A stretch of 50,037 nucleotides of DNA from a virus. Below the pieces are notes generated by a model that saw only the letters and a list, made by a program, of their open reading frames with translations, was not told the DNA's origin and searched no databases. Positions within the stretch are counted from its first letter, which is position 1. Each line of letters starts with the position of its first letter. Below, one piece after another: positions 1 to 45,222 of this stretch. The DNA lies in the IMG/VR virus record IMGVR_UViG_3300023181_000039, positions 1 through 50,037 of that record. One strand, 5' to 3'. The translations under genes and the position numbers were made by a program.

Positions 1-7
1 AAATTTA

Positions 8-1117
8 ATGATCATTGGCTGTACAGATATTGAAGAATTTCCTCCATTCTTTGTACATACTATTAAAAATGGTGTTATTATTAATAGTATCTTTTATAGA
101 GAAAAAGAAAAACCAGTTTATACAAATGGTTATAACTCTTATAACTATAATACTCCTAATATTACTAACGTTAAATGGAAGAATAAAGCTACTGGTGATA
201 TTCTATCTCATTTGAAGGAAACTGATAGTACTAGAATTGAAGTATTAGTAGATAAATGGGTTAGGTGTGTTAGTGATATGGATTCTCCTTATGGCCCAAA
301 AGAAAACATAGTTAAAATTACTAAAAACAAATGGTATTTAGTAGATGATTCTTCTGTTGATAATGGTTATGATATTCAGTTATTAGATGATAGAGATAAC
401 CTAGTTTGGGTAAGTTTCTATATGTTTGATACTAAATATATTGACTATCCATCAGGTTATGGTTATTCTATGAGTAATATCTTTGAAGAAAATAATGCAA
501 CTAAGTTATTATATGCAAAAGGTACTATCATTAAATTAGCAGAAAGAGCTATTATTGACAAAGATAACAGAATTGGTTGTATGTATAATACTGATGAAGT
601 TATGGATATACCTGTATCATTATTAAGACCAGCATTAAAAGATGAAGTAGATGCTCATTTAGCTAGTAACGCAGAAGAATTAAATAAGATTCTTCAAGTA
701 AATAGTAAACAATCAGCAATTAACTTTGATAAAAATCCTGTTGATAATGGTACTAGTGAACTATCTAATGCAATGAGTGCTAATGGCAATGAACCTAAAG
801 AACCGGTTGAGGAGGCTTCCCCCTTTCGTGAAGTTGGTGATGTGGTTGTTTGGGAAGAATTAGGTAAAGTAAAAAAATCTGAGGATTTATCTATTATTTC
901 AGTAGAAACAGAAGTTATTCCTAATGAGGATGATGATGAAACTATTGTAGTAGTACATGCTATACTTGATGTTATTGATAGTAAAGTTGATGATCTTAAT
1001 GATTTATTAACTCATGTTGATTGGGCTGAAGTAAAAACCATTGGCCAGGAATTAAAAGATATAGTCAATGAAGCATATAATGTTGATGGTGTTAGAAGCA
1101 CTATTGCTAAAAATTAA
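8..1117 (+). CDS. Hypothetical acidic protein upstream of amidoligase (possibly 5'-partial)
   Basis: I do not recognise this 369-residue protein. The reading frame stays open to the left edge of the window, so the ATG at 8 may not be the true start. A beta-rich stretch at about residues 82-145 (WVRC, GYDIQLLDD, LVWVSFYMFD) resembles the small SH3-like domains common in phage proteins; this is an impression from pattern only. The C-terminal 120 residues are very acidic (EDDDE, DVIDSKVDDLNDL) and look like a flexible tail plus a helix. Its place directly before the amidoligase suggests it could serve the same pathway as substrate, adaptor or regulator, but nothing in the sequence proves this. 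Confidence 0.6.
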   Translation: MIIGCTDIEEFPPFFVHTIKNGVIINSIFYREKEKPVYTNGYNSYNYNTPNITNVKWKNKATGDILSHLKETDSTRIEVLVDKWVRCVSDMDSPYGPKENIVKITKNKWYLVDDSSVDNGYDIQLLDDRDNLVWVSFYMFDTKYIDYPSGYGYSMSNIFEENNATKLLYAKGTIIKLAERAIIDKDNRIGCMYNTDEVMDIPVSLLRPALKDEVDAHLASNAEELNKILQVNSKQSAINFDKNPVDNGTSELSNAMSANGNEPKEPVEEASPFREVGDVVVWEELGKVKKSEDLSIISVETEVIPNEDDDETIVVVHAILDVIDSKVDDLNDLLTHVDWAEVKTIGQELKDIVNEAYNVDGVRSTIAKN

Positions 1118-1136
1118 ACTAATAATATTAATATTA

Positions 1137-2615
1137 ATGAAAGAAACAATAGAAATAGGTGGAAAACAGTATGATGTTGATAGTCCTAGTTTAACAAAAG
1201 ATTACTTTACTAAAGAATTTATTTTAATTGATGGAAGTGTAAATATTGTGTCTGCTTTAACATTAAGTAGGACTGCTGGTTATGAGGGTTCTATAGAAAG
1301 TGTAAACATACATAGAGATACATTTAATGCTAGAATAGCTGCTGGTAAAGTTGTTACTTTAGTTACTAGGTTTGGTGATGTTCATATGATTCAAAAAGTT
1401 AGGTCTGAAGGAGATGGTAGAATTTATCCTTCTAATGCTCCTACTGTAGGTAGAGTTTATTATGATGATTATACCAATCCTAGGCAGAATGTTAAAAATA
1501 AATTTAGACCATTTAATAACCAAGTATCTGTTTTTAAAGATATTCATAATAAACTAATTCCTGATCAAGATCGTAAAAAACTTATTGAAAGAAATTATAA
1601 TTTTGGAGTAGACAGTCCAACTTATAAAATCTCAGAAGGTAAGAATTATACATTTGGTGTAGAACTAGAAACTAGTTCAGGAAGATTAACAGTAGAAGAT
1701 GAAGTAGGTCTTAATCTTAAATGTGAATTTGATGGATCTCTTAGAGAAACACCAGATCAGAGGAAAGAAGATGTACTTGGTGGAGAGTATATTACAGGTG
1801 TACTTAAAGGAGATAAAGGATTTTATCAACTTCAAAGAGTTTGTAATACATTATCTGATAGATGTACTATTAATGGTAAATGTGGTGTCCATGTACATAT
1901 AGGTAATATATCTTTTAACAAAGAGACTATTATTTATTTGTATAAATTAGGTGAATTACTTCAAAATGAAGTTTATCAAATGCTTCCTAAATCTAGGAGA
2001 GAAAATGCTTATTGCAGAAAGATCAAGAATATAACACTTGATTTAGCTGGTTTAAATAGTGTTAGTAGCTCTATAGGTTATGATATTTTAGTTGATGAAT
2101 ATTATCATCAGATATTTAAAGAAGTATCTCATGGTAAAGAAGCTAATAGACAACACAATAAAAAAAGTAATCACCCTATGGGTAGTAAATGTGGTTATGA
2201 TAAAACTACTCAGCGTTATTGCTGGTTAAATTTTGTTACAGCTATGTTTAATACTAAAGGTAATCCAGAAGCAATTACGCTCGAATTCCGTTCACATAGT
2301 GCCACACTCAACTATACAAAGATTAAAAACTGGGTTAAAATCTGTATGGCCTTTGTGTCATTTGCTGAGAATAATAAAGCTTCTATTCGTAGAGGCTATT
2401 GGTTAGACTCTGATAAATTAGAACACAATATTGATCTATCTACAATTGTTAGAGCAGCTTATCCTAAATCTTATAAATTACTCCAAAGATATATTGAAGA
2501 TAGAAAATCTAAGTTTGCTTTTGATGATGGTAAAATAGAGGAATTAGAGTACAAAACAGATAAAGAAGGAGTTAAAGCGTTAACCTTAAAAGAAGATATA
2601 CAATGTGCCTTATAG
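1137..2615 (+). CDS. Amidoligase (COOH-NH2 ligase, Amidoligase_2-like)
   Basis: Predicted ATP-dependent ligase that joins a carboxylate to an amine, with the glutamine-synthetase/glutamate-cysteine-ligase fold. With the start at 1137 (492 aa), the family pattern is visible: GVELE (E176, E178), EFDGSL (D199), GGEYIT (E217), CGVHVHIG (H252, H254) and LEFRSHSATLN (E383, R385), which fit the metal and nucleotide binding residues. About 170 N-terminal residues precede the catalytic domain and are not recognised. An in-frame ATG exists at 1068, but that would overlap the previous gene by 50 bases and add a hydrophobic leader of low quality, so 1137 is preferred. The stop overlaps the glutamine amidotransferase start by 13 bases, pointing to coupled expression. 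The substrate is unknown. Confidence 0.85.
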   Translation: MKETIEIGGKQYDVDSPSLTKDYFTKEFILIDGSVNIVSALTLSRTAGYEGSIESVNIHRDTFNARIAAGKVVTLVTRFGDVHMIQKVRSEGDGRIYPSNAPTVGRVYYDDYTNPRQNVKNKFRPFNNQVSVFKDIHNKLIPDQDRKKLIERNYNFGVDSPTYKISEGKNYTFGVELETSSGRLTVEDEVGLNLKCEFDGSLRETPDQRKEDVLGGEYITGVLKGDKGFYQLQRVCNTLSDRCTINGKCGVHVHIGNISFNKETIIYLYKLGELLQNEVYQMLPKSRRENAYCRKIKNITLDLAGLNSVSSSIGYDILVDEYYHQIFKEVSHGKEANRQHNKKSNHPMGSKCGYDKTTQRYCWLNFVTAMFNTKGNPEAITLEFRSHSATLNYTKIKNWVKICMAFVSFAENNKASIRRGYWLDSDKLEHNIDLSTIVRAAYPKSYKLLQRYIEDRKSKFAFDDGKIEELEYKTDKEGVKALTLKEDIQCAL

Positions 2616-3847
2616 CAATTTCCCCAAGAGGGACTGACAAATACTCAGAATTCTTTTTACAAGGTATAAGAAACTCTGCAATGACTAATAATCATGGATA
2701 TGGTTATTCTTACAAAAGAACAAAAGCTAATGTAGTCCATTTCTCTAAAGGTTTTAGAGATTTGGAAGTTATGTTAGATCAGATTAAAAAACATAATCTT
2801 GATGATGATGATGAATTAATTGTTCACTTACGATGGGCTTCAGCTGGAGCTCAAAGTATGGCTAATACTCATCCTTTTTTTGTTAATTATAATTCTGAAT
2901 ATGCACATACTGCATTACAAGGAATTATAGATTTTCCAGCAGTATTTCACAATGGTACTTTTAGTAATTTTATTGATGAAAGTGATCATAGTGATACTTT
3001 TAACTTCACTAATAGCTTTTTGAAGATTAAAGGTATCTGGAATATGTTTAAGAATGATAGAGAGAAGTTTATGCAAGTATTTAAAGACTTAATAGGTTCT
3101 AATAAATTAGCCATTATGGGTAAGGAGTTAGAAGAAACTATTATAGTTGGTAATTTTGTAAATAAAGAAGGTTATATATTCTCTAATACTAGTTATGAAA
3201 ATAACTATAGAAGACCTATAGAATCTATTGATACATCTCTTAGATTAGTTAAAGGAGGAAAGGAAGCAAACGCAGGCTTAGAAGAACAAAAAAATCTAGC
3301 AACAAGTATATCAAGTCAGAATCTAAACACAAAAAATATAAAGGTTACGCCTGCTAACTTTCGAGATTTTAGAATTAAAAGTCATTGTATTATAACTGGT
3401 TGTGGTGTTAGACCTATTTTAAAAGATAGTTTTTTCACTATAGCTAAGTATTCAGATAATGACCCTGATGTTATACTTAGTGTATTAAACGAAGCTAGTA
3501 CCTATAGAACTGTTAGTAAAGTTCAATTAGAGAATGGTTTTATATTATTACCTAGGCAAGAAGTACAAGGTAAATATTTTGATTATCTTAAATTAAAACG
3601 TGATATTGCAGAAAGTAATTCAGCTGTTAAAAAGGTTTGGAATAAAGTTTTAGGTGTTTCTGGAAGAAGTACTATACCTGATAAAATCAGGATTAAACAT
3701 GGTGTATTAGATGAACCTTTAAATACCGAAGCTATTATTATGTTTTTAAAAGATAATGAAAAATACATAAACAAATTCAAATTCCAAGAATTGTGTGCTG
3801 AAATAAAAGCAAAACAAGTTGAAGAATTTGCAAACTGTATGTGCTAA
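2603..3847 (+). CDS. Class II glutamine amidotransferase (Ntn hydrolase)
   Basis: Predicted glutaminase domain that releases ammonia from glutamine for transfer by a partner enzyme. The protein starts MCLIAIS: removing Met would expose Cys2 as the N-terminal nucleophile. Other family residues are present: VHLRWASAG (R77), THPF (H90), FHNGTFSNF (N117, G118 of the oxyanion hole) and SDTFNFT (D131). Residues 1 to about 210 form this domain; the remaining 200 residues have no recognised domain and no synthetase module is fused. The gene overlaps the amidoligase by 13 bases. Amidoligases and class II amidotransferases are known to co-occur in bacterial and phage operons, so the pair probably acts together. 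The tail ends in CMC, a cysteine pair of unknown meaning. Confidence 0.88.
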   Translation: MCLIAISPRGTDKYSEFFLQGIRNSAMTNNHGYGYSYKRTKANVVHFSKGFRDLEVMLDQIKKHNLDDDDELIVHLRWASAGAQSMANTHPFFVNYNSEYAHTALQGIIDFPAVFHNGTFSNFIDESDHSDTFNFTNSFLKIKGIWNMFKNDREKFMQVFKDLIGSNKLAIMGKELEETIIVGNFVNKEGYIFSNTSYENNYRRPIESIDTSLRLVKGGKEANAGLEEQKNLATSISSQNLNTKNIKVTPANFRDFRIKSHCIITGCGVRPILKDSFFTIAKYSDNDPDVILSVLNEASTYRTVSKVQLENGFILLPRQEVQGKYFDYLKLKRDIAESNSAVKKVWNKVLGVSGRSTIPDKIRIKHGVLDEPLNTEAIIMFLKDNEKYINKFKFQELCAEIKAKQVEEFANCMC

Positions 3848-3946: not shown

Positions 3947-4954
3947 ATGAGTAGAATTTATGAAAAGAGAACGGAATTCAAACCTTATGAGTATAACAAC
4001 TTATTAGGTTACAGAGAAGCTATCAGAGCTTCAAGATGGGATGTTGAAGAATTTGATTTTAGTGAAGATATACAAGATTTTCATATAAACTTAGATTCTA
4101 AGGAAAGAAATACTATTAAGAATGCTATGTTAGCTATCAGTCAGATAGAAACAGAGAATGTTAAAACATTTTGGGCAGAGATAGGTAATATATTTCCTAA
4201 GCCTGAGATAGCTATGGTTGGTATAACATTTGGTGAAAATGAAATAACACATAGTCTGGCTTATGCTAAATTATTAGAAATATTAGGTTTTAATGAAGAA
4301 TTCAAGTTATTATTGAAGAATCCTGTAATAGAAGGACGAGTTAATTATTTAACTAAGTATCTAAGAAATGTAGGAGATAATCCTCAACAATTTCAAGCAT
4401 TAAAATTAGCTTTATTTAGTTTATTTGTAGAAAATGTATCATTATTTTCACAATTTGCTATTATAAAGTCATTTAGAAAACACAAGAATTATCTAAAGAG
4501 TATAGATAATGTAGTACTAAGTACTCAAAAAGATGAATTAGTTCATGCTAAATTTGGTATTGAATTATTAAGAATTATAAAATCTGAGAATCCTGAATGG
4601 TTTAATGATGAGTTCTATGAGAAGATTTATAGAGCTTGTAATAAAGCATATTTAGCAGAAGAGAAGATACTTGAGTGGATCTTTGAACAAGGAGATTTAG
4701 ATTTTCTAAAATTAGAAGATATCAAAGAATTTACTAGAAGTAGGTTTAATGATAGTTTAATAGATATTGGAGCTAAACCAATATTTGAGATAGATAAAAA
4801 CAAACTTAGTTCGTTGAAGTGGTTTGTAGAAGAGATTTATGCTTATACAAGAAATGATTTCTTTAATACCAAATCAGCTAATTATAACAAGGTCAGTGTA
4901 AAAACTGCAGATGTGATAGGAGCAATAAGGAGGGTGAAGAATGAGATGGTATAA
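3947..4954 (+). CDS. nrdB: Ribonucleotide reductase class I, small (beta) subunit
   Basis: Forms the metal-tyrosyl radical used by NrdA to reduce ribonucleotides to deoxyribonucleotides. At 335 aa it is close to the usual length. Ligands are visible: E68 (at the position of the E. coli Asp84), E99-x-x-H102, E162 and E197-x-x-H200. The radical tyrosine is Y106 in the pattern ExxHxxxY, so this is a tyrosyl-radical type and not a radical-free variant. A strong AGGAGG ribosome site precedes the ATG. It follows the Bacteroides-type promoter and overlaps nrdA by 14 bases, so both subunits should be made from one transcript. The order beta then alpha is reversed relative to many bacteria. Confidence 0.95.
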   Translation: MSRIYEKRTEFKPYEYNNLLGYREAIRASRWDVEEFDFSEDIQDFHINLDSKERNTIKNAMLAISQIETENVKTFWAEIGNIFPKPEIAMVGITFGENEITHSLAYAKLLEILGFNEEFKLLLKNPVIEGRVNYLTKYLRNVGDNPQQFQALKLALFSLFVENVSLFSQFAIIKSFRKHKNYLKSIDNVVLSTQKDELVHAKFGIELLRIIKSENPEWFNDEFYEKIYRACNKAYLAEEKILEWIFEQGDLDFLKLEDIKEFTRSRFNDSLIDIGAKPIFEIDKNKLSSLKWFVEEIYAYTRNDFFNTKSANYNKVSVKTADVIGAIRRVKNEMV

Positions 4955-7544
4955 TGAATTAAGTAAGTTGTTTATGTCTAGAGGCTATCTAAAAGATGGT
5001 CAAACTATAGAAGAAAGAATCAAAGAGATGGGTGATTATGCCCAATCTATATTAAATAAAGAAGGTTATTCTGATAAATTTCAGGATTATTGTAAAAGAG
5101 GATGGTTTATTGAACCTACACCTTGTTGGACTAACTTTGGAGTGAAGAATGCAGGATCTGCTGTATCTTGCTTTGGATTATATATTGATGATAATACACC
5201 ATCTATTTTAACAGCTGTAGCAGAGGCTGGAATGCAATCAAAAATAGGAGGTGGTACATCAGGTTACTTTGGTAAAATAAGGCCAAGAGGAAGCGCTATT
5301 ACAGGTGGAGGTAAATCAAATGGAGCAGTTAGTTTTATGCCCCTATTTGAAACTAACTCTAATGTAATATCTCAAGTAAATAGAAGAGGACACTTTTCAG
5401 CTACTTTAGATATTGAACATGCTGATTGTGATGAATTTCTTAAAATTAGAAGTGAAGGTAATCCTATACAGGAATTAAGTTTCTCTATTTCTATTTCTAA
5501 TAAATTTATGCAAAAAGTTTATGAAGAAGATCCTGTAGCTATTGAGAAATTAAGAAAGGTTGCTCAAAGTAGATTTCATACTGGATTTCCTTATATATTC
5601 TTCTCAGATAATGTAAATAACAATACTGTAGATGTATATAAAGAAACACTATCTACTATATTTCATAGTAATATGTGTCAGCCTAAAGAAGCTACCTTAT
5701 TATTAAAAACTAATATAGGAAGCCGTATTATTACTATGAATGAATTAAAAATAGGTGATATTATATGGTCAGGCAGTCAGTGGACTAAAGTTATTAATAA
5801 ATGGTCAAATGGAATTAAACCTGTTTATAAATATAATACTAGTACTGGATATTTCTTAGGAACTGATAATCATAAAATCTTTTCAAATAATAATAAAGTA
5901 GAAATTGGTAAAGCTAAAACTATTGATTGGACTGTTGGTGATTCATCTGTTTTATCAAAAGAATTTGATTTACAATCTATTATGGATGGTCTTGTTTTAG
6001 GAGATGGTTCAGTACATAAAGCTAGTAATAATTTAATTTACTTAAATATTGGAGAAAAAGATTATGATTATTTCAATTCTGAAATAAAAGATCTAGTTAA
6101 TAAAAAAATAGGTGTAGGTAAAACAGCGTATTCAATTAATACATATATTGAACATGAAGAATTGCCTAAAACTTATTTAAGAGGAATTCCTGATAGATAT
6201 TTTTATGCTGATGAAAAAATTAAGAGGAGTTTTTTAAGAGGTTTGTTTTCTGCTAATGGTAGTGTAGTAGGTACTAGAATTGTATTAACACAATCATCTA
6301 AGAGATTAATAGAACAAGCTAGAGAAATGTTATCTTCATTAGGTATACACTCTTATATAACGTCAATAAAAGAACAAGTAAGAATTTTTAAAAATGGTAA
6401 CTATACAACTAGAGAGTGTTTTAGTATTAATATAACTTCTGGTAGAGATTTATTTAAAGAATATATTGGATTTATTCAGTTATATAAAGTAGATAAAATT
6501 AAAGTTTCTAATAAGAATAGATATCAAACATCAGTTATTAAAGATGTTGAATATATAGAAGATTCTGAAGTTTTTGAAATAACTGTAGATGCTGATGAAC
6601 ATAGATATTGGACAGGAGGTGTTTTAGCATCAAACTGTCATGAGATAGCTTTACCTAATAATAGTAAAGAATCTTTTGTTTGTGATCTTCTAGGAATGAA
6701 TCTAGAGTATTATGATGAATGGAAGAATACAGATGCTGTTGAAGTAGCTATATATTTCTTAGATGCTATGTTAACTGATTTTATAAATATCAATAAGGAT
6801 ACACCTTATATGAATAAAGCAGTTAGATTTGCGGAAAGACATAGAGCTGTAGGATTAGGAGCATCAGGATTTCATACATATTTACAATATTTAAATATAC
6901 CTTTTGAATCATTACAAGCTAAAGGTATTAATTACCAAATATTTAAGAACTTACATGATCAAGCTTATAGAGCTTCTGAGAAAATGGCTCTTGAATATGG
7001 TAAACCTGATATGTTATCTGATGATAAATATAAAAGAAGACATACATGTTTATTAGCTATTGCTCCTAATACATCAAGTTCATTTATTAAATTACAACAA
7101 TCTCAATCTATTGAGCCTTATGTTAGTAATTATTATATAAAAGATGTAGCTAAAGTTAGAGTAAGTGTTAAAAATAGATTTTTAGAAGAAGTATTAATTA
7201 AATTAGGTCAAAATACTGATGATGTTTGGGAGTCAATTCTTAAAAATAATGGATCAGTTCAACATCTTGATTTCTTAGATAAACATACTAAAGATGTATT
7301 TAAAACATTTGGAGAAATATCACAATATGAAGTATTATTACAAGCATCAATAAGACAACCTTTTATTGATCAATCTCAATCTTTAAATTTAATGATACCT
7401 GAAGGAACAAACCCTGAAGATGTATTATATTTAATTATTAAAGCTCATGAGTTAGGTATTAAAACTCTATATTATCAATTAAATGTTTCAGCTGCTATGG
7501 AATTTACTAATTCTATTACAGAATGCGTTTCCTGCGCAGGCTAA
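4941..7544 (+). CDS. nrdA: Ribonucleotide reductase class I, large (alpha) subunit, intein-containing precursor
   Basis: Catalytic subunit of ribonucleotide reductase. The 867-aa precursor contains a 320-aa intein (residues 246-565), leaving a mature enzyme of 547 aa. Active-site parts are present: SCFGL (partner cysteine equivalent to E. coli Cys225), spliced junction SNM/CHEIALP (N-x-C-x-E, thiyl-radical Cys and Glu), FVCDLLGMN (Cys462 equivalent), LYYQ (radical-transfer tyrosines) and a C-terminal CVSC tail for thiol exchange. The protein is much shorter than the 761-aa E. coli enzyme because the N-terminal ATP-cone and adjoining region are absent, so allosteric activity control by ATP/dATP is probably missing. 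A GGAGGG ribosome site precedes the start inside nrdB. Confidence 0.95.
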   Translation: MRWYNELSKLFMSRGYLKDGQTIEERIKEMGDYAQSILNKEGYSDKFQDYCKRGWFIEPTPCWTNFGVKNAGSAVSCFGLYIDDNTPSILTAVAEAGMQSKIGGGTSGYFGKIRPRGSAITGGGKSNGAVSFMPLFETNSNVISQVNRRGHFSATLDIEHADCDEFLKIRSEGNPIQELSFSISISNKFMQKVYEEDPVAIEKLRKVAQSRFHTGFPYIFFSDNVNNNTVDVYKETLSTIFHSNMCQPKEATLLLKTNIGSRIITMNELKIGDIIWSGSQWTKVINKWSNGIKPVYKYNTSTGYFLGTDNHKIFSNNNKVEIGKAKTIDWTVGDSSVLSKEFDLQSIMDGLVLGDGSVHKASNNLIYLNIGEKDYDYFNSEIKDLVNKKIGVGKTAYSINTYIEHEELPKTYLRGIPDRYFYADEKIKRSFLRGLFSANGSVVGTRIVLTQSSKRLIEQAREMLSSLGIHSYITSIKEQVRIFKNGNYTTRECFSINITSGRDLFKEYIGFIQLYKVDKIKVSNKNRYQTSVIKDVEYIEDSEVFEITVDADEHRYWTGGVLASNCHEIALPNNSKESFVCDLLGMNLEYYDEWKNTDAVEVAIYFLDAMLTDFININKDTPYMNKAVRFAERHRAVGLGASGFHTYLQYLNIPFESLQAKGINYQIFKNLHDQAYRASEKMALEYGKPDMLSDDKYKRRHTCLLAIAPNTSSSFIKLQQSQSIEPYVSNYYIKDVAKVRVSVKNRFLEEVLIKLGQNTDDVWESILKNNGSVQHLDFLDKHTKDVFKTFGEISQYEVLLQASIRQPFIDQSQSLNLMIPEGTNPEDVLYLIIKAHELGIKTLYYQLNVSAAMEFTNSITECVSCAG
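5676..6635 (+). mobile_element. Intein with LAGLIDADG endonuclease domain in nrdA
   Basis: Protein-splicing element of 320 residues. It starts at Cys1 (CQPKEATLL), has block B TDNH at intein residues 63-66, two LAGLIDADG-type motifs (MDGLVLGDGS at 103-112; FLRGLFSANGS at 186-196), block F VDADEHRYW and ends VLASN, followed by Cys+1. The penultimate residue is Ser rather than the usual His, as in some other inteins. The insertion point is directly before the catalytic cysteine of the reductase, so the enzyme is inactive until splicing. The second LAGLIDADG motif has Asn in place of the metal-binding acid, so homing cleavage may be lost or weakened. Confidence 0.95.
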
Positions 7545-20200: not shown

Positions 20201-21289
20201 AGCATGATTTAATTCAGCAGTCTTTAAAACTTTATTTAGATCACCAATACTCTTATTAATAGATCCTATTTTAAATTTAATTTTCTTATGTAGCTGTAAC
20301 ATAAATATCTCAGAAGCAGGTAAACTACTATCAGCTGTATTTTTATATTTCTCAGAAGCATAAGTATTAATTTGAGATATAACTCCTTCAGCTCTTTTAT
20401 TTAATACTTTAACAGTACCATTTCCTGATATTAATGAAGGATTACTACTATCTTGTATAAAAGTAGCTACATCCCATATTAGTTTATCAACAGCTTTTTG
20501 ATCAGCTGTTTTTAAACCTAAGAATTGTTTAATTGCATTAGTTATTTTCTGTAATATGCTTTGATTTTTAGTACCTAATGATCTAAAGAAATTTTCATTA
20601 GACATTAATTCAGCTACAAATTCATAGTGATTAGTAAATCCATATAATTCAGAATCACTAGTTCTTTTATAAGCATTATAAGCTACTTCAATTTGTTTAG
20701 AGAACTCAATTTCTTCAGCTGTAGTAGGATTATCTAAAGCACTTAGTGTAAATGCATGAACATACTCATGAACAATAGCAGCGTAAAAATCTTCTTTTGC
20801 AATAGTTAGATTATTAGTAAAGTAAGCATTTAGCTCAACTCTACCATTATTATTATAATATCTACCTAACCAGTTACTTGTAAAATCACTATTAACTACA
20901 AATGTACTATTAGGAAGTTTATCTAAATTAGCTTGTAATAATCCAGCTATTTGTTGAACAAAAGGCTTAGTACTATTATCTATTACTACTTGTAAAGCTT
21001 CATTTGCATCTGCATTAGGAAATAAATCTAATAATTCTTTAGCACTTAAAAAGTGAGAATTATCTTTATTCATTTTATCTAAGAAATAAACAACAGTTTT
21101 TAAATCAGGTTCACCTAATTCATTAGTATCTGCAAAGTTATTTTTATTTGACATAGCAAATACATAATATCTTTTAGCTTCATCTCTATTATTTTTTGTA
21201 TAAGCAAGAAGATCTGTAAATAGTTTACTATCTACTAGATCTCCTTCTTTATTATACACCTGTGGGATCACAGCACAAAAGTTAGACAT
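17297..21289 (-). CDS. Large virion-associated protein with zincin metalloprotease motif
   Basis: A 1330-aa protein encoded directly after the virion RNA polymerase. HEYVHAF (zinc-binding His174, Glu175, His178) is followed by HYEFVAELMS, whose Glu would be the third ligand, so the N-terminal 250 residues look like a gluzincin-type protease. The middle is long and helical (many Asn, Lys, Leu). A hydrophobic stretch near residue 1190 (GEMAMFLLFASVSKILAPP) could enter a membrane. In crAss-like phages large proteins in this position belong to the ejected polymerase group, so co-injection is plausible. The stop is TAG. The protease target is unknown; self-processing or cleavage of neighbours is possible. 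Confidence 0.7.
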   Translation of the reverse strand: MSNFCAVIPQVYNKEGDLVDSKLFTDLLAYTKNNRDEAKRYYVFAMSNKNNFADTNELGEPDLKTVVYFLDKMNKDNSHFLSAKELLDLFPNADANEALQVVIDNSTKPFVQQIAGLLQANLDKLPNSTFVVNSDFTSNWLGRYYNNNGRVELNAYFTNNLTIAKEDFYAAIVHEYVHAFTLSALDNPTTAEEIEFSKQIEVAYNAYKRTSDSELYGFTNHYEFVAELMSNENFFRSLGTKNQSILQKITNAIKQFLGLKTADQKAVDKLIWDVATFIQDSSNPSLISGNGTVKVLNKRAEGVISQINTYASEKYKNTADSSLPASEIFMLQLHKKIKFKIGSINKSIGDLNKVLKTAELNHARNIRTLYNNGEPTDNSNPNFVNEVSRYEAEIAPVLSEVTDKTNYKNSLNSLLSDLETTTDITQDEANYIKLAVTQLDEIETRLGNYDLDSSEGQKQLAEDYLFTRLVEKSRIPSLQEPASNLSNELLKNISTYISNISEEYLNTSGLANPSINIDDILKNTEDITLLAKVFEGFGDYPRLEAQLIHSITMSGKEKARLDSLKVGQDIVDHMHKLQVWAKSAKLTNIVGKGSIRKAYAKLVEVNHLGRLDLVKPYNTKYYQEVNANFRNSKGTDPKAVAAKKWLSDNYYKKPTSGAYMNPKYAYLQSQPALKEFYEFFKQTMKNNYARLPEYITLNNEEKIPTLIKNSFWEFFSMRKSNIFKSTLTALKTILIGQGRAEFYDEAGDPREKFELAELSGDEIKLRMIGEASADVKSFDLGKVLFEFSSFVNDYSEMMEVLPKVRMIQNIVETKQYINETKNGIFGTQKVTIQGSESNTYKAINMYIQGKIIGTEESPFGRLGGGDIYDQNGAVVGRKSYYASDLLRGLIRYTRTLQLGFNPFSGVNNIFAGLMGDFIEAGGGKYFNKKQLMKAISIYTSNTLVKGSNIVRTDKLATKLNLLSEYIQPLEEIGEWQDKKKIELDSPTLLGSAFKGITDNAFIFQAAGEDFVQKITMIAYLLNKKTPEGIPYWNMVDVENDELKFKDETNFDTKQALLDSRKTILTINHSIHGNYSKDNSSVYDGALVFQAALVFKKWLPYMIRNRFMSKRYNYQTGQTDEGFYLAGAKGIAKSLGHMSDYFKGRFTTAQNVLNKRGALTREESIGIKKIIGEMAMFLLFASVSKILAPPPDEDKDKFWVPNFWEHLDISMWDSKKEFENYDGLSGMLLKSLMDSMNKLSAEAVQMYSLPFYYDAVKPALWSTLTDFWDVIRETFKYLGAEDKESKDLKFKKGPNKGNLRVIKEGGDLIPYYKQIQRAKQNGNKTIEELQK

Positions 21290-21860
21290 TAAAATCCCTC
21301 CTTATATAAGATCCTGAAGATATACTAGAAACCGTTCTTCTTGCTATATTGAACTTACTCATAATAACTTTTTGTTTTATTTTATTTTTAATCATATTTT
21401 GTATCTCTAATACATCTTCTTTTGTTAATTTAGATGCTACATATTTAGTTCTAAATTTTTCTAAAGTTTCTTCAGTATGTTTTTTACCATAAAAAGGATT
21501 ATCTTCACCTTGATATAATAATTTGTTTCTAATAGATACTGCTTTTCTCATACTGTCAGGCATTTTACAACCTAAATTAGAATCTGCTATATGTCTTATA
21601 TTATATTGAGGATTCAAAGTATCTATGTAGTATTGTTCTCTTTGTATTAAACTATCTTTATCACAATATTCAATAATTACAAACTGAAAATTTTCTTTTG
21701 TATATTTATTATAAGAAAATTGTAAATGTTTATTATAATGTTTATTTCTTCTTAATAATGAAAAGTGCGTTGATCTTCTATGCTTAAGATCTGATGCACT
21801 TCCCACATATATTTTATTGTTATTATAGTTTAGAATTATATAAATTCCGGATTTATTCAT
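21282..21860 (-). CDS. GIY-YIG homing endonuclease (free-standing), NUMOD3-like
   Basis: A 192-aa endonuclease wedged between the RNA polymerase and the second large protein. The catalytic pattern is GIYIIL...KIYVG (5-20), HRRS (Arg), IQREQYYID (Glu) and QYNI (Asn). The DNA-binding part has a NUMOD3-like repeat (NPFYGKKHTEETLEKFR) and a C-terminal helix-turn-helix (IMSKFNIARRTVSSISSGSYIRR). A TTG nine bases upstream is in frame, but the ATG at 21860 is preferred. The gene starts two bases after the polymerase stop and its end overlaps the next start by eight bases, so it has been fitted into the boundary without breaking either gene. Confidence 0.92.
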   Translation of the reverse strand: MNKSGIYIILNYNNNKIYVGSASDLKHRRSTHFSLLRRNKHYNKHLQFSYNKYTKENFQFVIIEYCDKDSLIQREQYYIDTLNPQYNIRHIADSNLGCKMPDSMRKAVSIRNKLLYQGEDNPFYGKKHTEETLEKFRTKYVASKLTKEDVLEIQNMIKNKIKQKVIMSKFNIARRTVSSISSGSYIRRDFNV

Positions 21861-21862
21861 AT

Positions 21863-24800
21863 TTAGCAAATTGGATTACCTTCATCATCATTAAAATTAT
21901 CTACTTGATTGTCTATATCATTTAAAGTAGCTTCTATATCAAATGAAGTATCTAATGTTGTTTGATAATCTTCAAATGCTTGCATATCTGCTTCTTCAGA
22001 ACCTAATGAAGGATCACCTTCACTATTTTCATCTATTACTCCAAATGGATTTACAAAGGTACTATTATTATCTGTAGTTTCCAAATTATCCTCTAATATA
22101 GGAGCAGGAACTTGTTCTTGTATTAAAGCTAAGTCTTCAGTAGTATCAGCTAACATCTCAGGAGATACATAAGATTCTTGAGTATTAGTACCTAAAGTCT
22201 TTTTCATAGCCTCTAAATTATCAATAAATTTATTATCAATAACTGTAGAACTTAATCCATTTTCAACTATAGGAACTATATCTTGAGTAGTTATTTCAAA
22301 AGCTACTGGATATTGATTCCAAGTAAGATAATGTTCAATAACTTGATCTAAATTAAAATCTATATAATTACCTAATGCATCAAAACCTTTTATAGATTTA
22401 AGTAATCTTGAAGTAACAGTTTGAGTAATACCATATTCAGTATCCTGATTACTAGTTACTCTACTAGCAGCAGCATAATATAATCCTCCTCCTCTTTCAT
22501 ATAATTCAAGAACTTGTGAATTACCAGAATTATAAGCATCTTCTAAGCTCTTTAAATAAGATTCAAGATTAGTATAAACTAAGTCTACACCTTTAATCTC
22601 TACTTTAGCAGTAGTTATTTTATTAGGTTGAATAGTATATTTAGTTGTAGCACTATCATTATAAGTTACATTTTTTAGATTCTCTACTAATGTATTAACT
22701 CTAGTAAATGAAGTAATCATATCAACTACTGTAGGTACAACACCTTCTTTAAGAGAACTAACATCATCAAATGCTTCTCCTTTTAAATCACTATTTAATA
22801 AATCTAATGAAGCTGATACATCTTTAAATACCCAAGATGGAATAGTATTAATAAATGATTTATTTTTAAATTGTAAACCATCTTTAAAATATGAATAATA
22901 ATATAGTTTTCTAGCAAAATCTCTAGTTCTAGTATTCATAAATAACTCTTTAAAAGCATTATTTAAGTTAGTATAGAAATCTCCTTCAGCTTTAATCCTA
23001 GTAGGGAATTCTATTTGTACTAAATTAGATCCAGATCTAGGATCTTTAAGAGTTAATAACTTAATAAGTATATTATCTCTAAATTGAGGATCTTTTTTAA
23101 GATTCCATAATTGTCTACCAATACTATTAGCTCCTGATTTATGAACCATATAACCTACATTATCTTTAGCTAATTGTAAAGCTTCATATTTTTCAGGATA
23201 TACTTCTTCTAAATAAGTTTTATTAGATCTATCCATAAAGAATGGAACTAATTGTTTAGAATTAATATTTAACATAGTAGTTAAACTCTTAAATACATTT
23301 GTATTAAGTAAAAAGAACTCTTTAGAAGCATCCATAACTTTCTTATGAATAATTATATTCTGAATAGTATTAGGATCATTTAACAGCGCTATTCTAGCAT
23401 CAAATGGAGTTAAATTAGGATTGTTATTATTAGGTTTAAATACAGGAAAGTTTTTATCTTTAACCCATTTACCATCTTGTTCTTTAATTACTCCAAGTGC
23501 TTCTAAAGTATTCATTAAATCTTCATAAGATTCTGTATCAGCACTAATATAATTATTTAAGAATTTAAGTTGTAGAGTTTCTAATACTCTATCTAATTTC
23601 AAGTTATCATCAAATGTAGATTTTAATCCTTTATTTAAAGATAACAAAGCAGATACTTTCTGAGTATACTGAGCTTGATTCTGTAATCCAAAGAATATTT
23701 GTAATATATCATCATTATGAATAGTATCAGTAGGATCTGTATTTTTATTAATAACTAAACTATCTATAAGAGTTTGTATAGTTACTTCTTTTCTATTTTC
23801 TTTTATATATTTATTTAATGCTGCAATATATCTAGGATCTTGTAAATCATTAGTTCCTGCTATTGCAAATACAATTTTTCTAAGATTATTTTCAGCATCT
23901 TTATAATCTTGAGCTAATTTAGCATCACCTGTAGAAAATATTTTAATAGCAGGTTGATTTAAGAATAATATAGTTTCTTCCATAGTATATCCTAAAGACA
24001 ACATATAAGAAGCTACAGGTAAAGTATCTGTAGGTAAACTATTAAATAACAAGTTTAATACTTTAGCATGTTGTTCTTTAGCATTATCTGTCATAGCTGA
24101 TAAAAGAGTTGATATATTATCATTCTTTCTATCAGTCTCAGAATCTATAGTATATACTCCTCCAAATCCAGTAGCTGTTCTACCTGATATAAAAGGTCTA
24201 TCAACTAATTTAAATAATTCTATATTATTAGTAGATAATAAACTATGAGTAACGTTAGCTAATGCAACAGGACCAATACCCTGTTTACCTTCCATATTAT
24301 TCCTATTAGCATTAAATCTAGCTAATGGAGTATTAGGAGATACTGCTTCAGCTTTACCTAATCCTAATTTATCTTCAACTATTTGTCTAACATTTTCAAT
24401 AGATGTCATTGAAGCAGGAATTCTAGCAGCTCTAGTTCTAACATAATCATTAGTTAAGAACTTAATTTGAGCTTCTAACATAGCATTGTTATTTACTCCA
24501 ATATTAATAGGATTCTGTTCTATGAATTCTTCTAAAGTTGAAGGTAATCCTAATGATGCAAAAGCTTTAGTTATAATATTCTTTCTAACTTGATTTACAT
24601 CAATATTCATAAAATCAGATAAATTCTCTAAATCAAAATCAATTTCATCAGAATTATTCAACTCTTTAAATTTACTTTTAAGCATCTTATTATTAACAAG
24701 ATTCCACTTTAGATATTCTTCATATTTACCTTCATTAGTTGTAGCACTACCATATTTAACAGTAGTACCATCTTTTAAAGTATAATAATCATACCTATGA

Positions 24801-27800
24801 ATAAACTCAGAGTCAATATCAAAGTCAGCTCCTGATAAAAATACAATCTCTTTAGGAAATACTCCTACTGATCCATATTCTACAGGTAAAAATCCTACAA
24901 CTTTAAGACTAATCATAGAGTGTTTATCTTGAGTTGGAATACGTACTCCAAACATCTTTAGAACTTCTTTAATCTTAGCATCAGAAGGATCTTTACCCAT
25001 TAATTCATTAGCAAATGGAGGTAATAAGCATTCAGAATAGTAATTACCATCTTCATCTTTAACCATATGTTGTAGAGATCTCATTTTACCAGTTACTTTA
25101 TCTTTAATTTTAATACCTGAATCAGATACTAAAGATACTTTTAATCCTGGAACTTTCTGAGATAATACTCCTTTACTAAAATGAGCTAAGAATAATTGTT
25201 CAGCTTTATTAACTACTGGACCTAAATTCCAGTTAAATTGTCTTTCACCATTATGATCTGGAGTAAAGAAGTTAGATAATACTTCATCAGCACCAGACTC
25301 TACAATTGTGTTATAGAATTTCTTAGTAAGCTCTTTAGAATTAAATTCTCCTGACAATGGATCTCTTATATATGCTAGAGCTTGTTTAAAGCCTTCTAAG
25401 CGATTATCTGCTAATAGCTGTCTATACATACGTCTAAGATCTCCTAATGTCTTTACATCAGAGTTATAAGAGAAATCTACAGCCATATTATCATCTTGTT
25501 CACTATGTACTAATTGTATTAACTGAGTACCTTGAGTAATCTTAGATTTACCAGATGGAGTTTCAACTTGTAGTCTTTTAAATTTATTCTCTAATTCCAT
25601 AATAGATTGAGAGAAATCAAATTTACCAGATTCTACGTATTTAGCAGGAGCAATAGTAGCCATTTTACTAGCTGATAAAGGTAGAGCTTGATCTACACCT
25701 TGATCTAACATAGCATTATATTTATTAAATAAATATTCAAATCCTTCTTTAGCTTTAACAGATCTACCATCTTTCATAATAACATCTCCTGCTTGAGGAT
25801 GACCTTTAGGATATACTTCACCTACTAATCTTGGAGTAAGAATTAACTCAGATAATTTAAAGTAATGATCTCCATTATAAGCAACTGTTTTAGTACTATT
25901 TAATGCAGAGTTATTATGCTCTAACTCTTCTTTCTCAGCCCATGTAATTTGTCTACCTTCAGCTATCTTATTATAAATAGCTTCTATTCTAGCAGGAAAT
26001 CTACCCCATCTTTGTAGTTGTAATATTTTATGATCTAAAGTAACATAAGATTGAGCATCAGCTACTTTAATTTCACCTTTACTTAAACCTTTTCTATAAG
26101 CTTTTAACTCATCATTTATTTGAGAAGAAGTCATAATACTATCAGCTTCTAACTCTATTCTTTTATCTTCAACTAATTTATCAATATCTAAATCATCTAA
26201 ATTCTTAGGATCAATAAAAGCAACTGGTTCATCATAAACTGCTACTCTAGTAAATCCTTTACCTAAATCAGGACCAGAACCAATAATACCTTTAGCACGT
26301 TTAAACCAATCTACTGTATTTTTAACTTTTTTAGCATAATTATCTAATAATAAGTTGTTTATACCTAAAGTATTTATATAAGCATTTAAATAGTAATCAG
26401 TAATTAATGCATCAGAATTAGCTACTGTTAATTTCTCTTTTTCTTTAATAAAACCTTGTCTAATTAATTCAACAGAAGGAAGCATACTACCTTGTTCATC
26501 AAATATATTATTAGCTATTAAAGCTTCTTTATAAGATTGAATATCTCTAGTTAATTTATCTTTAATAAGAGATTGAATTTCATCTTTATTACCTAATAAA
26601 TTATTATATACATCTTCTTTAATTTGATCATTACCAGTAATATCATTAATAATAGTATCTAACCCATAACCAGCAAATTCCATAAGTTTAAAACCTCTTG
26701 AATCAGGTTTATCATTATAACCTACCCAAGTTTTAATACCTTCTTTTTTAAACTCATTTTTAACTTTATTAATCCTAATAGCTTCTTGAGCTAAGTAATT
26801 AAATAAGTTGTCTAGTACTTCCTGATTAATAGTTTTATAATTATTAACAGGTAAAAATACTCCATAACCAGTATTGGAAGCTTCCATCTGATTAATATTA
26901 AACATAGCAGATTCACCTAACTTAGTTAGTTTACCATTTTCATCAATAGAATTTAAACTTTTTCTATTAGACAAAAACATAAGTAAATCAGCTAACATGT
27001 ATTGTTGAGCATTAAATTTACCAAAGGTTACTCCTTCTCCTTCATCAATTGTAGTAGCATCACCAGTTATATTAGTTTGACGATAACCATCTATCATAGA
27101 AGGATTAAGCATCTCCATAATAACATCTATATTCTCACTAGCTAATAGATGATTTAATGTTACATTATCAAGAGGATCAATAAAATCATCTTTCTTAGAT
27201 TTATCATCAGCTAATAATTGAGTTCTTCTAGCTTTATCTGATAACCATCTTAATTTAACTAAACCAAATGAAGGTCTAATAATAGAATATACATTTTTAC
27301 CATCAGCATTTTGAAAACTAGATTCACCTACTGTAGGATCAAAGATTGCATTTTGTTCAGCAATATCTTTTAACCTAGTAACAGCTCCTCTCTCTTTACC
27401 TTTATCATCTTTTGTAGATAAGAAAGGATTATATCCTGATTTAAATTCTGAGATTATAAAAGGAATATTACCTCCATCATATAAACCTTCAGTTCCTTTA
27501 AATGAATTTAAGAAATCTTTACCTTCTTGATCTAAAGTAGTATAATCTGATTTCTTTAATAATGAATAAGCTAAATAAGCATCAGATAATTTTATTGAAG
27601 CAATTCTAAAAGCAGCTTTAATAGCTTTAGCTTCTTGTTTAGCTTCAGCTAATGAAGTAACTGTTATATTCTCACTTCTATTAATAAAATCTAGATTAGA
27701 TTCTAGGCTCTTTTTAAGCCCTGTGTTGAATCCAATTTCTTCATGAGTAATACTATAGTTCTGTAACCATTCATTGAACTGTAGGTCTTTAGATGAAGCG

Positions 27801-30800
27801 TTATTAGATTCTACTAACCTAGATTGACTTTCTGAATGCAAAATAGTATACCAACCAACTCTTTCATTATTAAAAGCTGTAATAAACTTTCTAAAGATAT
27901 CTTGGCCTTTAGTTATATTTTGTATATCTAAACTACCTTCTCTAGTTAATCCTGTATCAGATAATAATTGATTAAATACTGCATTAATATCTTCATCAAA
28001 TTCAGCTAAAGCTTTAAATCTAGGTAATACCTGATCTTCTTCAACTCCACTTAATGCTCTAACTAATCCTCTATAAACTTTCTTAAAGTCTACACCTTCT
28101 TCTACTTCTTGACCATATTCATCAGTAGTTTTAATAGTTACTAACGAAATATAAGTTCTTAATACTGCACTAAATGAAGTTTCACCTCCTATAGTCCAGT
28201 TGTCTCTTTCAAATTGTTCACCTAAATCATCTATTTCCTCTTGAGCTTCTTCAATATCTCTTGATTCATCTAGATCAAATATCTTAGATTTGTTAAGAAT
28301 ATCTTTTTTAAGAGCAGTAATATTATTTGGTAATACAAATACATTTCTCTTTTGCTCTAAATTCTTAGTCATAGTTTCTAAGAAAGCATCATCATTAATT
28401 AAACCTGTAGATTCTAAATATTCTTCATAATAAGGATTATCATCTATACTATAGAATTTAGCTTTATCTGCAATTAATTTATCTAATAATGCATCTTTAG
28501 ATTTATCATCTAATTTAGTAGTTCTATCTTTCTGTATATCTAATTGTCCTTGTAAAAACTTATTAGTTAAACTAGCTACAATACCTTGACCCTCTAATTG
28601 AGTAGTGGTAATAGTATTACCTGCTTCATCAGTACCTTTATTATAGATACTAAATACTCTATCTTGATTAGCGTATCTACTATATTTATTAGATTGTTGA
28701 TTAGCATTTTTGAATTTACCTCTATTTATATTATAAAATAAAGATTGTAATTCATCCATATTACCTAAAACATAGTTTATCCAGTTCCTAATCTTATTAA
28801 AGATAGAATTTAATCCACTAGTATTATTACTTAAACCATAAACTTTAAAATCATCAGCCATCTTTTCCTCTAACCACAAAGATTCTAATTGAGAATCAGT
28901 ATAGTTGAAGAAAACACTAGATGAATTTCTTAGTTTCTCTATATCATTATTAGAAGGTTTACCATATTTTTTAGTTGCTAAGTTATTAGCTACAGCTATT
29001 TGTTTGTCTGTTAATAAGCTTCTATATACTGCGTGAAAAGCTTCATGATATTGAGTACCTACTTCTGCATTAGAATTAAGATAAATAATATTATCTGCAA
29101 ATGCTCCAAATGTAGTACCATTATTTTTTATATTACCTAATAAAGTATTAACATCAGCTACACCAATAGAAGAAGGTAAATTAGCTTCTATCCATGAAAC
29201 TGCTTCAGGATAATCCATAATTTCTTCTGATTCTCCAATACTAAATATAGGATCAGAACTAGCTCTATAACTATTAATAATAGCTCTAACTTTAGTTTCT
29301 ACACCTTTTTTCTTAAGTTTAGATAAATCTTCAAATCCTATTAATAATGGGGCTGATTCTTTTAATATCATACTTTTAACACCATCATTAAAATCATTAA
29401 ATGAAGCATCAAAGATAGATAAATCAAAATCTACTGGTTTATTATCAGGAACTACTTCATCTACTACATCTGCAGGTAAATCTAAAGTAGGATCAGTATC
29501 ACTATCATCAAAAGGTTGAGCAAAAGGATTATCTTGATCTTCTGTTTCTATAGGTACTTCAGCTGTTTGTTCTACTATAGGAGCTTGAATTAAATAATCA
29601 TTAAGTTTATTATCATCAAATTTAATAGTAATTTGTTTATATAATAAAGGATTAGTTACAATATCTGGAGTTAAGTTAAGACTTAGTTTATTAATAGTCT
29701 CTCTAGCAGGAGCTAAATTGGGTAATGTAACCCTTAATTTAGTTTTATCTAATCCTAAAGCAGCTAATAAATCATCTATAGTAGCATATTTACTAGGATC
29801 TAATTCAACTCTTTTACCTTTTTGTCCTTTAATCTTTAAGTTTATTGTATATTTCTTATTAGTAGCATTAGGAGTAGTAAACTGTAATTCAGCAAATTCT
29901 ACAGATACAAATACATTATCATTAAGATATCTATTAATATTACCTACATGTTGCTTAACAGCTTCTGCATCTAAAGTAGTATTCTTTAAGAAAGCTACTT
30001 CTCCCATTAACTTAGTATATAACTGTCTTTGAGCTACTTCACTAAGTACTTGATTTTGAGCACCTACCCAATAGTATTTACCATTAGTTGCTTGAACTAA
30101 TACTACATATCTTTCTACTAATCCATCAGGAATAGGAGGAACATTAGGTTGTTCTCTCATATTAACTGTACCATCAGTAATCTCTATATTAGCATTATTA
30201 GATCTATCTATAATATAGTATTTACCTCCATTAGCAGTTAATTTAGCTGCAGGAATATCTTTAATTAAAGTTCTAGGGGTAGCATTATCTACTGTAAATT
30301 TACCATCCCATTGTAGATTAAAACCTAATTGATTTAATAAAGCAGGAGATATACTTCCATCTTGTTTTAAGATAGCTTTAATTTTATTATTTCTAGCTAC
30401 AGTTTCTTGATATTGTCTTGGATTTATATTTAAATCTACTAGATTAATATTACTTAGTCCATCTAATTGATTTAAGTTACCAATCTTTTTACCATTATAT
30501 ACTACATGAACAAATATCTCAGGAACTATAACTTTACTTGTAGTATTAAATGTCTGTAATACTTGACCTACAGTATATCCTAAATCAGCAGGATTTGTAT
30601 ATTCTAAGCTAACATTAGATAGTATCTCACCTATCGGAGTATTTTGAAATAATAGATTAATTTCTTCATCAGTATAAAAATCTGGAAGGTTATTCATAAC
30701 AGTAGTTCTTTGAATTCTATCAAAATAACTAATACCAGATACTAACTTCTGATTATCATTCTTTTTAGCATCAGCTTCTTCTTGAGCTAATCTAGCTTGT

Positions 30801-42195: not shown

Positions 42196-42864
42196 TTATG
42201 ATTGTGTATCTGCGTTATTTGAAGTATCTTCTTGTAGTTGTAAAAACTCACCTAATTCTTGTTTCTTAATTAATTGATTGATAGTATCTATCATTCTACC
42301 AGATATAGGATATTGATCTACATCAGGATTATAACAAGTAGTACCATCTGCATTTTTAAATTTAGATACATCTCTAGGATTTAAGAATACACCTTCTATA
42401 TTAATATATTCTAATAAACTATTAGGACAATTAGTAATATAAATATATCCTTCACTATAATAAGCTAAAGGGCTCTTGGAAGCATATTTATTATATTGAT
42501 TATATCTTACATGAGCTTTAGTCTTAAAAGAGATAAAAGATTGTTTATCTAACCCTCCAACATAAGTAATAGCATCTTTTTGATCTAATTCAATAGGCTG
42601 AGGTATCTTATTAGTAGTTCTAATGATATATCTACCTGTTAAGTTACTACCTTCACCTTTATCTACAATAGTTACTGGTACTTGACCTAAATCCTGTTTA
42701 ATATTAGAACTTATAGATCTACCTTTCTGTAATTGTTGTACTATAAGTTTTTCTCTTAGATAATTACAAATAAATTCAAGCTGTCTATCCGATATTTGTA
42801 AATCATCAGGTCTTGCTTGTTTTATTTGATTTCGTAAGTTATATATTATCTCGTTTATTGTCAT
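42196..42864 (-). CDS. Ring/connector structural protein candidate (222 aa)
   Basis: Starts with a helical domain (IIYNLRNQIKQARPDDLQISDRQLEFICNYLREKLIVQQL), then a beta-rich middle (GQVPVTIVDKGEGSNLTGRYIIR, YIYITNCPNSLLEYINIEGVFL) and a helical end with a flexible tail (DTSNNADTQS). This alpha-beta-alpha organisation, as with the 248-aa protein, suits connector or ring proteins stacked below the portal. The gene shares one base with the upstream GIY-YIG gene and comes three bases before the 157-aa protein. Assignment is by neighbourhood. Confidence 0.6.
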   Translation of the reverse strand: MTINEIIYNLRNQIKQARPDDLQISDRQLEFICNYLREKLIVQQLQKGRSISSNIKQDLGQVPVTIVDKGEGSNLTGRYIIRTTNKIPQPIELDQKDAITYVGGLDKQSFISFKTKAHVRYNQYNKYASKSPLAYYSEGYIYITNCPNSLLEYINIEGVFLNPRDVSKFKNADGTTCYNPDVDQYPISGRMIDTINQLIKKQELGEFLQLQEDTSNNADTQS

Positions 42865-43454
42865 TAAATATAAATAAATGGAGTATTATTTTTTAATAAT
42901 CCTGTTAGACGTTTACCTAAGTAGTTTTCATTCTTATTTATAGAATTTCCAGCTTCAATTACACCTTTATAGTAAATTCCGGTTTCTAAATTTATTATCC
43001 ATTTTTTACTATTTTCTCTACATTTTTCTAAAGTTTCTTCAGAATGTTTTTTACCTTTCATATTTTGATTACCTAAGGCTAAACTTCTTAATTTTTCTTT
43101 TAGCTCTTCTGAAACTTTTCTATTTTTAGATTTTCTTATTTCACTTCCTCTTTTTATAGCTTCAGTACTTAGTTTAGTAACTCCATCTCCACCATCTGTT
43201 AGGTTTACTAAAGTTCCTAATCCAAGATCTCTTCTTCCATATAATTTTATATAATATATTTCTCTTAATTTAGCTTCATAATCTTCTAAATTATCTTCTA
43301 TTATTTCAGATATATAATTAGTTTTTGAAGTTATATTTTTCCAAAATGGATTTCTTTCTTTAGAATTTTTTCTATATTTATGTTTTTGTGTACTAACTCC
43401 AATATAAAAAACTTCATTAGTATCCAACCTAGTATGTTTATAAATGTATGCCAT
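42864..43454 (-). CDS. GIY-YIG homing endonuclease (free-standing), NUMOD-bearing
   Basis: A 196-aa nuclease with AYIYKHTRLDTNEVFYIGVS (GIY-YIG core), KHKYRKN (Arg), AKLREIYYIKLYG (Glu) and TLVNLTDGGDG (Asn), followed by NUMOD3-like NMKGKKHSEETLEKCRENSK and a C-terminal DNA-binding region (IINLETGIYYKGVIEAGNSI) similar to NUMOD1. It lies between the spanin-like protein and a ring protein and shares one base (TAATG) with the latter. Unlike most genes here it has its own Bacteroides-type promoter, so it can be expressed separately. Confidence 0.92.
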   Translation of the reverse strand: MAYIYKHTRLDTNEVFYIGVSTQKHKYRKNSKERNPFWKNITSKTNYISEIIEDNLEDYEAKLREIYYIKLYGRRDLGLGTLVNLTDGGDGVTKLSTEAIKRGSEIRKSKNRKVSEELKEKLRSLALGNQNMKGKKHSEETLEKCRENSKKWIINLETGIYYKGVIEAGNSINKNENYLGKRLTGLLKNNTPFIYI

Positions 43455-44300: not shown

Positions 44301-44618
44301 TTATTTAGTTTTTTGAATTATATCTTTAGCAAGCGGAGCTGCTTTTTTTCTTAGTAAACTATCCCTTTTATATAAAGCACTATCTTTAAGTGCATTTGAT
44401 TCTTCTAATCCTTTAATCTTTACTAATACATCAAAGTATTTACCGCTTATACTATCTTTTTGTTGATTAACACGGTCTATTCTTTGTTGGTTAGAGCTGC
44501 TATTATCGCCATCTTTATTAATGAAATATACATTACTTAACAAAAGACATGCTATTATAACCTGATAAGGAAAATTCTTTATATCTTTCAGAGAGAAAGT
44601 AGGTATATTTAGTGGCAT
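44301..44618 (-). CDS. Small membrane protein with coiled coil, lysis-cassette candidate (105 aa)
   Basis: One membrane-spanning segment near residues 17-34 (FPYQVIIACLLLSNVYFI), then a charged helical tail (QRIDRVNQQKDSISGKYFDVLVKIKGLEES and on). It lies between endolysin and the spanin-like protein, with its stop next to the latter's start. A single-TM coiled-coil protein at this point could be a holin accessory, an i-spanin-like or an antiholin-like element. There is no motif to decide. Confidence 0.45.
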   Translation of the reverse strand: MPLNIPTFSLKDIKNFPYQVIIACLLLSNVYFINKDGDNSSSNQQRIDRVNQQKDSISGKYFDVLVKIKGLEESNALKDSALYKRDSLLRKKAAPLAKDIIQKTK

Positions 44619-44645
44619 TTATCATTTTAAATTTATTATCCATAA

Positions 44646-45212: not shown

Positions 45213-45222
45213 ATATTATAAT

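Follow-up and report, generated by a model that had tools for sequence, protein, structure and literature searches.

A crAss-like phage contig that opens on the predicted end of a ligase/amidohydrolase cassette, with one amidoligase between two putative class II amidotransferases

A group of crAss-like phages, represented by 19 contigs, appears to encode a single amidoligase between two predicted class II glutamine amidotransferases (GATs), an arrangement that seems to be new. Here, we describe this locus in a stretch of 50,037 nucleotides (the window), positions 1 to 50,037 of the IMG/VR record IMGVR_UViG_3300023181_000039, which is crAss-like according to family profile matches to crAss_MUZ (5e-43) and CrAss_Ring_1 (2.3e-63). 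With a confidence slightly better than even for the two parts taken jointly, we propose that the window holds the 3' end of a crAss-like version of a known multi-gene phage ligase/amidohydrolase cassette, and that this cassette acts on the cell wall.

The locus lies on the plus strand at the left end of the window. The C-terminal part of a putative canonical class II amidotransferase (GAT-A; 2..1117, the frame open to the contig edge) is followed by an Amidoligase_2 gene (1137..2615, 492 amino acids) and by a gene for a divergent predicted class II amidotransferase fold (Ntn) protein, denoted GAT-B (2603..3847, 414 amino acids). The amidoligase and GAT-B frames overlap by 13 bases (2603..2615); ATG at 1137 is a possible amidoligase start, and the longest frame begins at 1068. 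A sequence-only reading of this DNA had described the ORFs 1137-2615 and 2603-3847, and its coordinates, frames and 13-base overlap are all correct. As judged from their sequences, both ORFs encode real and apparently intact enzymes.

The identity of the first ORF links these two genes to a larger system. A GAT-A profile that was built from relatives only, with the window excluded, matched ORF 2-1117 with 58 bits (E = 8e-17), against 14.6 bits (E 0.0016) for the best of 2000 shuffled controls. The match begins just past the catalytic domain and the frame is open to the contig edge, which together indicate that the window begins inside GAT-A; the ORF also precedes the amidoligase, the same place that GAT-A occupies in 38 loci. 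Thus, by profile, ORF 2-1117 is predicted to encode the C-terminal end of GAT-A, which is the cassette's canonical class II amidotransferase and whose catalytic N-terminal domain would lie beyond the left contig end. Pfam did not provide an identity for this region, with DUF5738 below threshold and no other match to ORF 8-1117, and a scan of viral contigs with the upstream ORF alone as the query yielded no confirmed relative.

The amidoligase is readily recognized, scoring 65 bits against Pfam PF12224 (cut-off 22; E = 1.2e-17) and matching phrog_2443 'amidoligase' at 9.9e-24. The active-site pattern GxExE, D, E, HxH, ExR is present in the window protein and is conserved almost without exception across 78 relatives, a set that includes near-copies: E176, E178, D199, E217, H252, E383 and R385 are identical in all 78, although the conservation of E176 is partly imposed by retrieval because one search pattern included it, and H254 is kept in 74. 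All the catalytic residues proposed in the sequence-only reading are therefore conserved. In Foldseek searches, the model of the amidoligase matched YbdK best (1.1e-4, probability 1.0), with a low TM-score of about 0.3, followed by glutamine synthetase, gamma-glutamyl-methylamide synthetase and Dop/PafA (the last at E of about 0.02-0.2); the amidoligase profile did not match the YbdK sequence significantly (E = 0.3), but the motifs align in order. The model suggests a glutamine-synthetase/GCS-like fold, the match being modest, and given the matches to YbdK, glutamine synthetase and Dop/PafA, along with motifs ordered as in YbdK, the enzyme probably links a carboxylate to an amine at the expense of ATP.

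GAT-B alone falls below the Pfam threshold (GATase_4, E = 0.0047, 16.3 bits against a cut-off of 23), and a relative, from locus L083, clears the GATase cut-off with 43.7 bits. The Pfam gathering score is a sensitivity threshold and not a functional feature; what we claim for GAT-B is a class II GAT fold with its active site, and no named enzyme. A profile of GAT-B relatives searched against the PDB matched GlmS and PurF (E of about 0.001-0.03). The protein is predicted to consist of a catalytic domain (residues about 1-200), a poorly predicted linker (about 203-320) and a small C-terminal domain (about 321-414), and no fused synthase domain was identified in it. Residues 1-200, modelled with AlphaFold2 (block-mean pLDDT 82-98), matched, in Foldseek, the GlmS glutaminase domain (2.6e-7), PurF (3.4e-4) and EgtC (8e-4), such that GAT-B is, on this model, a second and divergent protein of the class II glutamine amidotransferase (Ntn) fold. 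All 61 relatives, near-copies included, have Cys2 (directly after Met), R77, H116-N117-G118 and D131; this set comprises all the GAT-B residues (Cys2, R77, N117/G118 and D131) to which the sequence-only reading had pointed. The search patterns contained C2, N29, G32 and G34, the invariance of which is partly imposed, whereas H75, R77, 116-118 and D131 lay outside one pattern set used to fetch relatives. The GlmS counterparts of the GAT-B residues bind the alpha-carboxylate, alpha-amine and oxyanion of glutamine, and the residues of GAT-B would accordingly fit recognition of glutamine or a gamma-glutamyl group. In both enzymes, catalytic residues are kept in relatives and the models match the ligase and Ntn folds, the two points on which the sequence-only reading had offered itself for refutation.

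Relatives were fetched with patterns from close alignments, given that the 45-row GAT-B and seven-row amidoligase alignments contained no sufficiently conserved pattern; a scan of viral contigs with the single GAT-B protein produced no confirmed relative, and no GAT-B was found in the plasmids searched. In the close viral contigs L002-L004, with amidoligases 41-43% identical to that of the window, the gene order is ATP-grasp-like, unknown, class I GAT, COOH-NH2 ligase, GAT-A, amidoligase, GAT-B. Pfam identifies the class I GAT (Peptidase_C26, 4.5e-22), the COOH-NH2 ligase (2.6e-11) and GAT-A (GATase_6, 3.4e-9) in this cassette; the ATP-grasp call in L004 comes from a profile shared with annotated genes of the phages phi14:2 and cr108_1 and not from Pfam. 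A class I GAT or a gamma-glutamyl cyclotransferase is often included ahead of GAT-A. In the 50-kb window itself, which begins inside GAT-A, no ATP-grasp, COOH-NH2 ligase or gamma-glutamyl cyclotransferase gene was found.

GAT-A, amidoligase and GAT-B are adjacent in 19 loci, including the window, and wherever the contig extends upstream, these loci contain the COOH-NH2 ligase and ATP-grasp genes, with the cyclotransferase in part of them. Another 19 loci have GAT-A and the amidoligase with no adjacent GAT-B, and 19 have the amidoligase and GAT-B without GAT-A. The spacing between amidoligase and GAT-B is -47 to +67 bases in 38 adjacent pairs; in quite a few GAT-B loci, however, the amidoligase gene lies at a distance of 0.6-3 kb. 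The functional link between amidoligase and amidotransferase suggested by the sequence-only reading is supported by the GAT-B loci that were fetched without reference to the amidoligase: 37 of these 45 contain one, and two more do so by Pfam (one of them, L082, below the cut-off); the six others include two loci truncated a short way upstream and three copies of a single phage. Amidoligase/GAT-B pairs thus extend to phages unrelated to this crAss-like group, and in contigs of bacterial and archaeal genomes, chiefly Clostridia, both genes are present in 11 of 17 loci. The notion of a coupled pair was, however, incomplete: with ORF 2-1117 recognized as a truncated GAT-A, that is, a second class II amidotransferase, and with the relatives' genes ending a longer cassette, the two linked genes appear to be the end of a larger unit.

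No natural amidoligase-GAT fusion was detected among the loci examined. One locus, L067 (7582-9987), has two neighbouring amidoligase genes ahead of GAT-B. In L009, whose amidoligase is related to that of the window, the ORF at 1407-2507, after the amidoligase and in the place of GAT-B, is perhaps a replaced or decayed GAT-B copy; its reading as a decayed GAT-B comes from likeness by eye, with no profile support.

In phylogenetic trees, which contain long branches and in which the context labels of L009 and L036 were set by default since these contigs are cut, the GAT-A proteins form one clade with full support, and amidoligases that accompany GAT-A occupy one part of their tree (99% support), separate from the GAT-B-only ones. 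The three-gene loci cluster in the amidoligase tree and come together in the GAT-B tree, joined there by L046, the contig of which is cut off upstream. The trees are compatible with GAT-B having joined GAT-A and with the reverse. Longer contigs of the GAT-A-containing groups, with or without GAT-B, encode crAss ring or muzzle proteins, and no crAss ring protein was found on the GAT-B-only contigs tested. One cassette-bearing contig, IMGVR_UViG_3300028888_000053 (L040; 212277 bases), has a crAss-muzzle-like stretch (44518-45687, minus strand) with nine in-frame TAG codons, which would fit TAG being read as an amino acid.

A seven-gene peptidoglycan-modification cassette has been described in RIO1-like phages, phiEco32, LUZ24, PaP3 and others (PMC5498523), the genes of LUZ24-like phages appear in a published gene table (PMC3890496), and phage RIO-1 carries the cassette. 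It is predicted to alter the wall and so prevent superinfection (PMC5498523; for the phiEco32 suggestion with OM43 phages, PMC10580990), and the predicted peptidoglycan-modification genes of phage HP1 are 'expressed immediately' after infection (PMC7082346). In the papers cited here, no substrate or product is given for any such phage cassette, and the wall role is a prediction there, too. The phiEco32/LUZ24/RIO-1 type (PMC5498523, PMC3890496, PMC11945000) shares with the relatives of the window the ATP-grasp, COOH-NH2 ligase, class II GAT and Amidoligase_2 genes, a location among early/replication genes and, in part of the relatives, the gamma-glutamyl cyclotransferase; the combination of class II GAT and Amidoligase_2 is present in the window as the GAT-A remnant and the amidoligase. 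Unlike this type, the window has a second class II GAT, GAT-B, after the amidoligase, a class I GAT (Peptidase_C26) is additionally present in many of its relatives, and the upstream part of the cassette is outside its contig. Within Crassvirales, phi14:2 and cr108_1 (Steigviridae) have GAT-A directly before the amidoligase, with the COOH-NH2 ligase ahead of both; their amidoligases are about 26-30% identical to that of the window, and a uracil-DNA glycosylase gene, in place of GAT-B, comes next. Our literature search for amidoligase together with crAss-like phages retrieved no paper, and the sequence-only reading had taken the pair to be without known function in these phages. The cassette was nevertheless already present in Cellulophaga phage phi14:2 and in cr108_1, so what appears new is GAT-B after the amidoligase.

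The observed families, catalytic residues, folds, conserved order and the start of the window within GAT-A are the basis of our explanation. From these, we infer the chemistry of the ligase and the roles of the GATs; the peptidoglycan target follows published inference. Most likely, the amidoligase acts on envelope peptides by forming amide bonds of the gamma-glutamyl type, with the GATs providing ammonia or cutting such bonds. In this scheme, the amidoligase would spend ATP on activating a carboxylate, of a side chain or in the gamma position (in glutamate, a glutamate-containing peptide or a cell-wall stem peptide), and would couple it to ammonia or an amine. Both GATs would recognize a gamma-glutamyl moiety (through R77 and D131 in GAT-B) and, acting via Cys2, either supply the ligase with ammonia released from glutamine or cut the gamma-glutamyl bonds that the ligases make. 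The product would be an amidated or gamma-glutamyl-modified peptide, most plausibly within host peptidoglycan, and the modification, early in infection, might limit superinfection or recycle wall material.

The use of glutamine-derived ammonia, as anticipated by the sequence-only reading, is possible, and a gamma-glutamyl hydrolase role like that of EgtC fits the data about equally. GAT-B, and GAT-A as well, could be an ammonia donor that channels glutamine ammonia to the amidoligase, as in MurT-GatD but with other folds. That pair consists of a ligase and a glutaminase partner that amidate peptidoglycan glutamate (PMC3267633); MurT is Mur-ligase-like and GatD is of class I type, folds unrelated to those of the amidoligase and GAT-B. 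We hold this to be a candidate with clearly less than even chances, inasmuch as the GlmS-type glutamine-binding residues are all kept in GAT-B, the nearest structures, GlmS and PurF, are both ammonia-channelling, and GAT-B is tightly spaced or overlapping with the amidoligase. However, gamma-glutamyl hydrolases of the class II GAT fold should have these residues as well, free ammonia or an amine is the usual substrate of ligases with the glutamine synthetase fold, a second GAT for a single ligase would be redundant, and at quite a few GAT-B loci, the ligase is 0.6-3 kb away.

The hydrolase role, to which we give comparable, less than even credence, would have GAT-B remove or edit the amidoligase product, like EgtC or Dug3, in a make-and-cut cycle. 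The ergothioneine pathway likewise combines a glutamate-cysteine ligase (EgtA) and a gamma-glutamyl hydrolase of the class II GAT fold (EgtC) (PMC11993508), a likeness of roles, with other substrates and with EgtA not an Amidoligase_2 protein. EgtC is among the structural matches of GAT-B, the weak Pfam matches are to GATase_4, and the GAT is counted among the degradation genes in PMC5498523. The cyclotransferase and the C26 hydrolase, which cut bonds of the same chemistry, occur in the same cassettes and favour make-and-cut gamma-glutamyl chemistry; the Christensenellales phage NatCom_6392 has a cyclotransferase near the amidoligase and no recognized GAT. Conversely, the GlmS-type match is stronger than that to EgtC (2.6e-7 versus 8e-4), and none of the sequence features measured separates the two roles.

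Many phages keep only the amidoligase and GAT-B, which speaks against the long cassette as a rule and implies that not every member needs it. We entertain more tentatively that GAT-B represents an amidoligase partner in its own right that has not been described before. It would act as a gamma-glutamyl hydrolase or as a second source of ammonia, forming with the amidoligase a minimal make-and-cut module that travels by itself in many phages and that, in one crAss-like lineage, became joined to the GAT-A cassette. We consider it unlikely that the target is something other than the wall, be it a small free peptide or metabolite synthesized by the cassette or a protein of host or phage that it modifies: RimK-type ATP-grasp and glutamine synthetase-like ligases often build peptides or tag proteins, and some matches of the amidoligase model are to the Dop/PafA protein-tag enzymes, but these matches are weak (E of about 0.02-0.2) and the L004 cassette has no small precursor peptide gene among ORFs of at least 80 amino acids.

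Under the cassette explanation, what looked like an isolated pair would become the end of a widespread, conserved phage cassette of predicted function in crAss-like phages. Amidoligase and GAT-B constitute its smallest form, the easiest to express and assay, and an effect of the cassette on peptidoglycan, if real, would offer a direct route to understanding how phages remodel the host wall early in infection and without lysis.

Elsewhere in the window, the ribonucleotide reductase large subunit (ORF 4941-7544, plus strand) contains a 320-amino acid intein (5676-6635) with a LAGLIDADG homing endonuclease domain, located between SNM and CHEIALP. A joint switch of GC skew and coding strand lies at about 17000, with genes on the plus strand before this point and on the minus strand after it. 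The minus strand encodes a GIY-YIG/NUMOD3 homing endonuclease (21282-21869), another ORF containing a NUMOD3 motif (42864-43454) and a single ORF of 3951 amino acids (21863-33718).
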